A DNA stretch of 64,000 nt, taken from assembly GCA_902536085.1 (NCBI GenBank), contig CACAWF010000001.1:97415-161414 (forward strand), given 5' to 3'. The stretch comes from an uncultured Pelagibacteraceae bacterium. Lineage in GTDB: Bacteria; Pseudomonadota; Alphaproteobacteria; Pelagibacterales; Pelagibacteraceae. This document shows positions 7,011 to 61,254 of the stretch, piece after piece (positions within the stretch are counted from its first letter, which is position 1; each line of letters opens with the position of its first letter). The notes beneath the pieces are model-generated. The model made no database searches. It was not told where the DNA came from and was given only the letters and a program-made list of their open reading frames with translations. Position numbers and translations under genes: made by a program.

Positions 7011-7898
7011 ATGGAAAGTATACCTTACGACAAAAGATCAGGTAAAATTTGGTTCAACGGGATCACTGTTGATTGGAAAGACGCAAATATTCACATTTTA
7101 AATCATGGACTGCACTATGCAAGTTGTGTTTTCGAAGGTGAACGAGTTTATGATGGTGAAATCTTTAAATTAGAGGAACATACCGAGAGATTATTTTATT
7201 CAGCTAAAAGAATGGGCATCGATGTTCCTTATTCACAAAAAGAAATTAATGATGCTTGTAAAAAAATTGTTAACATCCAAAAAGTTCAAAATGGATACGT
7301 TAGACCCCTTATCTGGAGAGGGAGTGAAATGATGGCTATTTCAGCACAAAAAAATAAAATTCATGTTGCGGTTGCAACTTGGGAGTGGGGATCTTACTTT
7401 GATCCTAAATTAAAACTTAATGGAATAAAACTAAATATTTCTAGTTGGAGAAGGCCTGCACCAAATACTATACCTTGGGATACCAAAGCAGCTGGTTTAT
7501 ATATGATTTGTACTTTATCAAAACATGAAGCAGAGGCAAAAGGATTTACTGACTCATTAATGTTAGATCATGAAGGAAATATTGCAGAAGCAACAGGTGC
7601 AAATGTTTTCTTTAAAAGTAAAAATGGAGATCTTCATACTCCAATACCTGACTCTTTTCTAGATGGCATAACTAGACGTGAAGTAATTAAGATTGCTAAA
7701 TCTAAAGGAATAAAAGTAATTCAGAGAAAAATCAAACCAGATGAGATGAAAGTATTTGTTGGCTGTTTTTTGACAGGGACTGCTGCAGAAGTAACACCCG
7801 TTTCTCAAATTAATGAATACAAATTTAAGGTTTGTAACTTAATTTCTAGTTTAGATGATGCATATCAGAAATTAGTCAGAAAAGATACCGCCGCTTAA
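7011..7898 (+). CDS. ilvE: Branched-chain amino acid aminotransferase
   Basis: MESIPYDKRSGKIWFNG...HGLHYASCVFEGERVYDGEIFKLEEH...EATGANVFF. ORF opens at 6936; 7011 is the likely start by family N-terminus. Confidence 0.92.
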   Translation: MESIPYDKRSGKIWFNGITVDWKDANIHILNHGLHYASCVFEGERVYDGEIFKLEEHTERLFYSAKRMGIDVPYSQKEINDACKKIVNIQKVQNGYVRPLIWRGSEMMAISAQKNKIHVAVATWEWGSYFDPKLKLNGIKLNISSWRRPAPNTIPWDTKAAGLYMICTLSKHEAEAKGFTDSLMLDHEGNIAEATGANVFFKSKNGDLHTPIPDSFLDGITRREVIKIAKSKGIKVIQRKIKPDEMKVFVGCFLTGTAAEVTPVSQINEYKFKVCNLISSLDDAYQKLVRKDTAA

Positions 7899-59756: not shown

Positions 59757-59999
59757 TTGATGAATAAACTTAAACCAAAACCATATCAATTTTGGGCATG
59801 GTGTTCCACTATCACAATTTTAGCTGGTGCTGGAACAGCAGCTTTGGGTTATTATCCTTTATACTGTTATATTTTTTTAATTGGTAATAGCGGTTTAGCT
59901 ATAATTTCTTGGCTATGGAATGAAAAATCTTTAGTAGCACTAAATATTGGACTCGCGAGCATTTATCTTGTTGGTTTGATTAATCTTTATCTTAATTGA
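59757..59999 (+). CDS. Small hypothetical membrane protein
   Basis: 80 aa, two or three hydrophobic helices; compact spacing after upstream ORF. Confidence 0.55.
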   Translation: MMNKLKPKPYQFWAWCSTITILAGAGTAALGYYPLYCYIFLIGNSGLAIISWLWNEKSLVALNIGLASIYLVGLINLYLN

Positions 60000-60038
60000 A
60001 TTTCAAATGCGATTACATATTCTTTTTTCATATTTTTT

Positions 60039-60064
60039 AGGGGCGTTCTGTTGCCAGGTGCCCC
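60039..60064. repeat. Direct repeat copy 1: partial duplicate of tmRNA gene end (candidate att site)
   Basis: AGGGGCGTTCTGTTGCCAGGTGCCCC, 26/26 identical to 60961-60986; similarity continues 12 nt with 4 mismatches (GGACCTTGTAAC vs AAACCCCGTAAC). Confidence 0.9.
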
Positions 60065-60132
60065 GGACCTTGTAACATTATTCCTTATTATACGCCATTT
60101 GCAATTGTTAAGAACCTAAAACTTTGAGGGAA

Positions 60133-60151
60133 ATTACGAGTAGATTACGAG
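60133..60151. repeat. Paired iteron ATTACGAG-TAG-ATTACGAG inside left cassette end
   Basis: Two direct copies at 11-bp period, ~69 bp inside copy 1. Confidence 0.75.
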
Positions 60152-60178
60152 CGAAATCTTATGCTAGAATCTTGGAAC

Positions 60179-60877
60179 ATGAAAAAACTTTTAGCGATCG
60201 TGGTTCTAGGTTTGTTGTGGGGTGGAAACGCTTATACAGAAAACATAGTTTTAAACTGTAAAAATTTACCTGTTTGGCAAAGTTTAAAGTTTGAAATTAA
60301 CAAAGAAAATAAGACTGTAAATATCACTGAGCAATATACTCAAAAATCTAATAAACGATCGTTTTCCAAACCTATAAGCTATTTAGATAATAAAAAAATC
60401 CATATTCAATTCCCCAACGGCAGTTTTTGGCAGTTCTTTTATGGTTCTGACCACAAACTAATATTTCCTGATGGAAAAACAAATTATCTAAAATGTAAAA
60501 ATGAATTAAATACAAAACAATTGCAAACAGCAAAACAAGATGCGATTATGTTTACAATCAAAGATAAACGTGAACAGTGTGAAGCAATTGGATTTAAACC
60601 TAAAACAGAGAAATTTGCTGATTGTGTTCTAAGGTTAGTAGAACTTGATATCAAAAAACAGCAAGATAATAAAATAGCAGCTGCTCAGAATTCAGGAAAC
60701 ATGCAAATAGCTAATCAGTTATTACAAATGCGTAACGATAATAATGCACAATACTTAATTGATTTAGGACAGCAGTTATTGACGCCTCAGTCATTTAACT
60801 CAAACATCTATTTACCTCAAACGCAAAATTGCACAATTATGGGCTTTGATAGTTTTGCAAAGATGACTTGTAATTAG
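60179..60877 (+). CDS. Exported hypothetical protein, sole ORF of the repeat-flanked cassette
   Basis: Signal peptide MKKLLAIVVLGLLWGGNAYT; Cys-containing segment KREQCEAIGFKPKTEKFADCVLRLVELD. ORF opens at 60161; 60179 fits signal peptide. Confidence 0.75.
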   Translation: MKKLLAIVVLGLLWGGNAYTENIVLNCKNLPVWQSLKFEINKENKTVNITEQYTQKSNKRSFSKPISYLDNKKIHIQFPNGSFWQFFYGSDHKLIFPDGKTNYLKCKNELNTKQLQTAKQDAIMFTIKDKREQCEAIGFKPKTEKFADCVLRLVELDIKKQQDNKIAAAQNSGNMQIANQLLQMRNDNNAQYLIDLGQQLLTPQSFNSNIYLPQTQNCTIMGFDSFAKMTCN

Positions 60878-60883
60878 AAAAAA

Positions 60884-60902
60884 ATTACGAGCACATTACG
60901 AC
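60884..60902. repeat. Paired iteron ATTACGAG-CAC-ATTACGAC inside right cassette end
   Basis: Same motif, same orientation, same 11-bp period as 60133-60151; ~58 bp before repeat copy 2. Confidence 0.75.
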
Positions 60903-60960
60903 CTGTCAGGTTGCATCATTCAAATTAGTATCATTAACAAAGAAAAACTATAAAGTTGTA

Positions 60961-61205
60961 AGGGGCGTTCTGTTGCCAGGTGCCCCAAACCCCGTAACTT
61001 AATTAATTAAATTAATTAAGCTGCAAGTGCAAATTTTTGATTTGCATTTATAATTTAGCCCGTTACGTCGGAGCCATCTCGAACGAAAGAACAGCCTTTG
61101 GACACCCGTCGATCCTAATTCACCCCCGTAAAATTATGGTGGAGGTGGTGGGTACTGCCCCCACGTCCGTGATGTTTATTACGAAATTCGTTTATCGTCA
61201 TAGTT
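60961..61205 (-). ncRNA. ssrA: Circularly permuted two-piece tmRNA (coding piece ~60961-61127; acceptor piece 3' end at 61137, 5' end approximate)
   Basis: Minus strand: coding piece starts GGGGGTGAATTAGGATCGACGGGTG; tag ORF GCAAATCAAAAATTTGCACTTGCAGCTTAA; acceptor piece has T-arm GTGGG-GGCAGTA-CCCAC then CACCTCC-ACCA, pairing with GGGGGTG. Confidence 0.92.
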
Positions 61206-61254
61206 GGAAAACCAACGACTTATTATATTTTAAAATCAAATTTCTGAAAAGAAT

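Follow-up and report, generated by a model that had tools for sequence, protein, structure and literature searches.

The 922-bp unit beside the tmRNA gene of this Pelagibacteraceae genome is probably a non-autonomous, attP-bounded cassette that is moved by visiting integrases. Comparison of sequences documents the duplicated ends of the unit, empty sites and alternative cargo in relatives, arrays at the same target, arm-type repeats matched between the two ends, and what appears to be transfer of such cassettes between lineages. In the mechanism we propose, a circular form with a copy of the tmRNA 3' hairpin (attP) would recombine with the hairpin of the tmRNA gene itself (attB). Integration would create attL and attR ends; the tmRNA would stay intact, with another copy of its end at the far side. 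A tyrosine integrase would bind, through its arm-binding domain, to the paired arm-type sites inside the cores, and it would be supplied in trans by passing elements or phages that target the same tmRNA. Successive insertions at this one target would build arrays, in which cassettes would turn over. The cassette described here may still be mobile, and its helper could be a phage, a satellite or a short element.

Direct repeats of the tmRNA end bound a single-gene unit

We analyzed a stretch of 64,000 nucleotides (the window) from an assembly of 758,679 bases in 32 contigs, estimated to be 72% complete. Exact copies of a 26-bp sequence, AGGGGCGTTCTGTTGCCAGGTGCCCC, lie at 60039-60064 and 60961-60986, each on the plus strand and 922 bp apart from start to start (chance expectation 0.00 in 100 shuffles). 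Longer similarity, 81% over 54 nt, surrounds the repeat (60034-60087 compared to 60956-61009). The host gene and insertion target is a two-piece (permuted) alphaproteobacterial tmRNA on the minus strand at 60959-61254 (Rfam RF01849 alpha_tmRNA, 214 bits, full model 1-355), which ARAGORN also reported as a permuted tmRNA (tmRNA*) at 60925-61232 with the tag ANQKFALAA. Read on the tmRNA strand (minus), the proximal exact copy (60961-60986) is the 3'-terminal hairpin of the tmRNA coding piece and the proposed recombination core. It folds as (((((..(((....)))...))))) with a GCAA loop (-11.8 kcal/mol, z -2.5). The tmRNA-distal copy of the core (60039-60064, minus strand) is the outer boundary of the cassette. 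Thus the end of the target gene is duplicated as direct repeats at both boundaries, and the tmRNA is intact. Allowing up to 3 mismatches, the core occurs at these two places only in the 72% complete assembly, so it is not a dispersed terminator family in this genome.

The earlier note had described a perfect 26-bp repeat at the 3' end of the tmRNA coding piece and again 922 bp away, with a single exported hypothetical ORF between the copies. Exact matching, Rfam and ARAGORN agree with the first part of this description, and we found one credible ORF between the repeats (60161-60877, plus strand). No integrase is encoded within the unit, as judged from the ORFs of the window array.

Relatives carry empty sites, other cargo and arrays

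In a search of 60 related genomes with the alpha_tmRNA model, many genomes of the same genus had additional partial tmRNA ends downstream of the tmRNA gene, and the sister family had none. We compared 27 stretches from relatives. The host frame is constant: on one side the tmRNA is accompanied by thyX or a DUF6044-like gene, and on the other lie PRA-PH and fumC. Between the tmRNA and PRA-PH/fumC, 15 of the 19 complete intervals in the genus have two to five cores and the remaining four have only one. The cores are always in direct orientation, 0.1-2.4 kb apart with different genes between them, and always correspond to the 3' end of the tmRNA coding piece.

Two intervals, L046 and L064, are empty sites with a single core each. 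When the flanks of the window unit were joined at the core and aligned to L046, 349 of 457 columns were identical, and the alignment was colinear through a DUF6552 gene. In the window this gene (59757-59999, plus strand; Pfam PF20189, E=3e-8) is host flank outside the cassette; in L046 it begins no more than 10 bp past the single core. The earlier note had proposed that relatives might have an empty site, other cargo at the same place, or a full element with an integrase. All three were found: the empty sites just described, the multi-cassette arrays with different genes, and, in one relative, an integrase directly at the tmRNA core (L340, below). The opposite prospect it had raised, that all relatives would carry the same gene and both repeats, was not borne out.

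Some cassettes share end sequences. Next to the distal core of the window unit is an end segment that we call class A (60065-60130; GGCGTATAATAAGGAATAATGTTACAAGGTCC beside the core on the tmRNA strand), and nearly identical distal segments are present in L052, L055, L058, L060, L066 and L067.

The array layout, the small size of the cassettes, the palindromic core and the absence of an integrase nearby are also what would be expected of a CALIN, an integron-type array without an integrase in which the hairpin would be an attC site recombined as a folded single strand. We consider this highly improbable. None of 55 core copies has the attC R-box consensus RYYYAAC...GTTRRRY, and distal core copies lose outer stem pairs (ACGG.., TAGG..). 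The host recombinase scored only 33.7 bits against the integron integrase model TIGR02249, far below the cut-off of 265, and paired arm sites are not a feature of integrons.

Paired arm-type repeats lie inside the cores

Inside the cores of the window unit there is a second pair of repeats, AAATTACGAGnnnATTACGA, at 60131-60150 and 60882-60901 (chance expectation 0.02), which the earlier note had missed. The tmRNA-proximal pair of arm-type sites (60882-60901, plus strand) is AAATTACGAGcacATTACGA, with a period of 11 bp; its score against the other end was 18.7, rank 0 of 50. The tmRNA-distal pair (60131-60150, plus strand) is AAATTACGAGtagATTACGA, in the same orientation as the proximal pair. 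On the tmRNA strand the repeats read TCGTAATnnnCTCGTAAT, in tandem with an 11-bp period and co-oriented at both ends. The unit therefore appears to have arm-type sites flanking the core on both sides, as judged from the repeats themselves.

Tandem arm-type repeats are found just inside both cores in many of the larger cassettes, and the motif varies from cassette to cassette: TCGTAAT (window, L058), GGTCGTAG (L052), CTCGTCC (L054), TTGCCGA (L055), TTCGGAAT (L129), GTACGGGAT (L149, L167), GATCACA (L063, L131, L206) and TGGCACA (L118, L193). We compared the two ends in 50 cassettes of at least 450 bp, using 20,000 permutations. The best direct match of a cassette to its own other end averaged 14.7, compared to 10.3 between different cassettes, and none of the permutations was as high (p = 5e-5); related cassettes of one class were counted separately, which inflates the mean somewhat but does not affect contrasts within a class, such as TCGTAAT vs CTCGTCC. 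In reverse orientation there was no such matching (p = 0.27, the same 50 cassettes). The other end of the same cassette was the single best match in 14 of the 50. A convincing arm pair was absent in approximately half of these cassettes, and compact ones, such as a 388-bp DUF2784 unit, have none.

Cassette arrays lack a recombinase of their own

No tyrosine recombinase-like ORF was found in the window array or in 115 array loci (L003-L010, L041-L067, L118-L197); the exception, L340, is a separate element. None of the arrays with at least two cores has a recombinase. Genomes of the genus have a single conserved recombinase (304-318 aa), whose gene neighbourhood is fixed and which contains only SAM-like and catalytic domains; we read it as the host Xer. 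No PF00239 resolvase or serine recombinase was present in 25 genomes. By these searches there appears to be no resident recombinase other than the Xer-like protein, and the one integrase located at the same core has the arms of an integrase-less cassette.

The host's single Xer-like tyrosine recombinase could itself move the cassettes, making the arrays an integron-like platform with an enzyme that acts in trans. Most array-bearing genomes have no other PF00589 protein, among them the closed genome G082, whose tmRNA carries a class A cassette with the end sequence of the arms. Directly upstream of the Xer-like gene, however, is a dif-like palindrome of its own (L098-L117; TTTCCGATAATTAATGGTTATCGGAAA or ACTAACGATAATTAATGGTTATCAATAGT, depending on the subtype) that differs from the tmRNA core, and on this ground we set the host Xer aside as the cassette enzyme. 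In addition, a protein with only SAM-like and catalytic domains has nothing with which to bind the arm pairs, and arm-like repeats are absent near the Xer-like gene (0 of 14 loci). We therefore regard this explanation as very unlikely. The palindrome upstream of the single Xer-like gene is a candidate for the dif site of a system with one recombinase, and it borders a variable glycosyltransferase region.

We also looked for helpers among viruses and plasmids. No integrase with the arm sequence of the window unit, TCGTAAT, was found in 397 genomes, IMG/VR or INPHARED. A helper phage in IMG/VR was considered and rejected: the exact core matches were whole tmRNA genes in eight contigs (a ninth contig, L256, was left out). 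The viral contigs L003-L010, one of them 243 kb, encode complete permuted tmRNAs that end in the same hairpin. There were no convincing cassette ends in viral contigs, INPHARED phages or PLSDB plasmids. The L340 integrase was not found in viral contigs, and in INPHARED it has only distant relatives (<60% identity), of which 20 are Pelagibacter phages.

An integrase element at the tmRNA core and its integrase-less relative

Phage-type integrases are rare in these genomes (approximately 16 of 397) and are mostly at tRNAs. In one of the 397 (G186), an integrase is located at the tmRNA site (L340). The tmRNA core at 7353 is followed by arms with an 11-bp period, TTGGCGTCATGGTGGCGTCACAAG, including the repeats TTGGCGTC, and then by the gene for a 330-aa integrase, starting at 7470; the contig ends at 9013, 0.55 kb past the gene. 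The catalytic set is kept, as judged by alignment (R198, K223, H276, R279, H302, Y311). A profile of twelve such integrases matched solved tyrosine recombinases, including lambda and Tn1549-type Int, from approximately residue 54, and the N-terminal 50 residues look, by their sequence pattern, like the arm-binding domains of this class.

An integrase-less cassette of 4.5 kb, L219, has the same kind of end. The first 60 bases of its end match L340 with two differences, and the homology stops at the integrase start codon. L219 has one copy of the arms at its tmRNA-proximal end and the full pair at its distal end. On the basis of these matches, L340 and L219 are best described as an integrase element and its integrase-less relative at the same target, and the rare integrase-carrying element at the tmRNA site looks like the machinery that moves the cassettes. 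Together with the empty sites and the arrays, L340 supports the suggestion in the earlier note that the unit is an integrase-less cassette at the tmRNA, mobilised in trans.

The pair also bears on a different history, in which the window unit would be a decayed remnant, an integrase island reduced to one gene and no longer mobile. That L219 resembles an L340-type element but diverges at the integrase start codon indicates that cassettes can arise by deletion, and the window assembly has no integrase for the arm class of its cassette. Both cores and both arm pairs of the window unit are nevertheless intact, and near-identical cassettes in diverged genomes (below) point to recent movement of such units. 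Decay is thus an unlikely explanation, and we favor a cassette that is moved by integrases acting in trans.

Perfect 8-mer repeats spaced 10-12 bp apart were found near six of 17 phage-type integrases and at none of 14 Xer-like loci, against a background of 4% of stretches. The scan was cut at stop-to-stop boundaries and so missed L311 and L317, which came from an earlier, differently bounded scan; adding them by hand gives eight of 17, although four of the 17 (L322-L325) are near-identical and the independent number is therefore smaller. The arms of L315 and L343 share an exact 14-mer with the cassette L212, scoring 21.9 compared to 21.0 for the best control, and we do not claim this match. 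Several-kb elements at SAR11 tRNA genes (L303, L341-L347) have an integrase of 310-335 aa, a primase-like ORF of approximately 480-600 aa and small ORFs that resemble terminase small subunits (named by eye); they look like phage satellites.

Distribution in SAR11, second sites and probable transfer between lineages

A 21-bp core (up to 2 mismatches) was present in 323 of 397 genomes of the order, confined to the family of the window. It was absent from 49 sister-family genomes, and a reversed control pattern had no occurrences. Scanning the contigs of these genomes, most of which are single-cell assemblies, gave 120 SAR11 stretches. Across SAR11 there were 78 distinct cassettes of 0.1-4.5 kb, with 120 cargo ORFs in 88 families. 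In one SAR11 group the tmRNA core is immediately followed downstream by a tRNA-Leu gene of the opposite strand (L124, L133, L135, L145, L158, L172, L181, L185, L187, L197), in the place that cassettes occupy in other genomes.

Cassettes were also found at second chromosomal sites, after rnhA (L143, L149, L151, L157) and at pnp/fabI (L165, L184). Single cores are present between pnp and fabI in L122 and L182. The genus of the window has a further cassette site in L238-L241. In L238-L240 (G035, G023, G006), a 71-aa gene lies between two degenerate cores at this non-tmRNA site and is nearly identical in all three.

These second sites are relevant to the view that the core is one of a family of transcription terminators copied from one gene end to another, and that the cassette bounds are coincidental. 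In favor of this view, the core is a GC-rich hairpin, and other SAR11 genera have single cores between convergent genes (pnp/fabI in L122, rnhA in L237). The earlier note had named a scattered terminator family as the finding that would speak against its reading, but in the genus of the window cores occur only in the tmRNA array and at a single other site, and they are absent from the sister family and from the reversed control. The second sites hold cassettes with the same end classes, and a terminator family would leave the coupling of the arms unaccounted for. We give this explanation almost no credence.

Two comparisons indicate that cassettes can be more similar than the chromosomes around them. 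The cassette segments of L041 and L233 are 99.5% identical over 619 bp, compared to 78% for their thyX-tmRNA flanks; L167 and L193 are 94.5% identical over 1,001 bp, with a flank match of 203 bp at 82%. Other cassettes shared in the same comparison were no closer than their flanks. The simplest reading of the two cases is that cassettes moved between diverged lineages. Cargo kinship also connects the tmRNA site (L233) with the rnhA site (L151, L157), through the proteins MEKEMLAIAKIK... and MIKKFFSIAKFP...; comparison of nucleotide sequences gave no match longer than 150 bp between L233 and the L151 and L157 cassettes, so this kinship is at the protein level only. We tentatively suggest, as a possibility somewhat short of even, a larger cassette economy, in which hundreds of single-gene, integrase-less units would share a common core, carry a private arm code for each visiting integrase, and move between the tmRNA, rnhA and pnp sites.

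Relation to known systems

SAR11, among the most abundant marine bacterial groups, has small genomes in which few mobile elements have been recognised. Several mobile systems resemble the cassettes in part. CIMEs, the cis-mobilisable members of the ICE family, are att-bounded and integrase-less and accumulate in tandem at one target gene, as the cassettes do. CIMEs as described extend over kilobases, are moved together with a neighbouring ICE and derive from conjugative elements, whereas the cassettes are mostly 0.2-2.5 kb and no transfer genes were seen. Tycheposons and VEIMEs exchange cargo in streamlined marine hosts by means of tyrosine recombinases, at tRNA- or tmRNA-type targets and in a phage-satellite context. 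Tycheposons of Prochlorococcus and VEIMEs are named in PMC11389934 and PMC10872708; they measure 4-200 kb and have a recombinase of their own (PMC10872708). The units described here are far smaller (922 bp in the window) and without a recombinase, and so do not qualify as tycheposons. In CALINs (reviewed in PMC11389934), too, small cassettes with recurring recombination sites form arrays that need an integrase in trans. In contrast, the cassettes have no attC boxes and, as far as tested, no single-strand hairpin substrate; they do have arm sites, and often a promoter-like start that belongs to the cassette.

We found no literature on SAR11 tmRNA cassettes in open-access papers (preprints and subscription papers were outside the search). 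The closest reported systems are the additive flexible genomic islands with tRNA-end direct repeats in Ca. Actinomarinales (PMC7771536) and fGI-2 of Ca. Methylopumilus (PMC10872708). As described in the relevant passages of these papers, small cassettes are inserted successively at a tRNA gene, each with a partial tRNA repeat, in streamlined aquatic hosts, with variable size (330 bp-42 kb for fGI-2) and cargo mostly of no known function (PMC7771536, PMC10872708). The tmRNA locus similarly combines variable genes, a fixed place and repeats of a tRNA-type gene as bounds. It differs in that the target is the SAR11 tmRNA hairpin, the paired arms are cassette-specific, second sites share cassettes, and there is a matching integrase element; the same passages describe neither arm sites nor a helper (PMC7771536, PMC10872708). 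If our reading is correct, part of the flexible gene pool of SAR11 would be accounted for by single genes that are inserted and exchanged with no resident enzyme. The reading would also suggest, by naming sites and a candidate enzyme, a mechanism for the tRNA-repeat cassette islands of other streamlined aquatic bacteria, which were reported without one.

Cargo genes

The cargo gene of the window unit (60161-60877, plus strand) encodes an exported protein of 238 aa from the first ATG, or 232 aa from MKKLLAIVV.... The protein has no Pfam, PHROG or PADLOC family (E<=0.001) and, apart from itself, only weak relatives in the 397 genomes; a protein encoded in another tmRNA array (L193) is 65% identical. 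Its start codon and signal-peptide stretch, MLESWNMKKLLAIVVLGLLW, are common to otherwise different cargo in L045, L052 and L067. Distinct exported cargo proteins have the common start MKKLLAIVVLGLLW... and the same sequence upstream, and the end module seems to bring a promoter-like sequence and a signal peptide to the cargo.

Among 91 cargo representatives scanned, we found matches to MrcB_N (three), NOV_C (two), HNH (two), Mrr_cat (one) and DpnI (one), for which we claim no enrichment. PADLOC matched HamA and LmuA once each among the 91, and we do not claim that defence genes are enriched. The remaining representatives include SOD, SelO, azurin, rhodanese and exported proteins without assignment. 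The part of the flexible pool that such insertions would explain includes restriction- and nuclease-like genes of possible use in defence.
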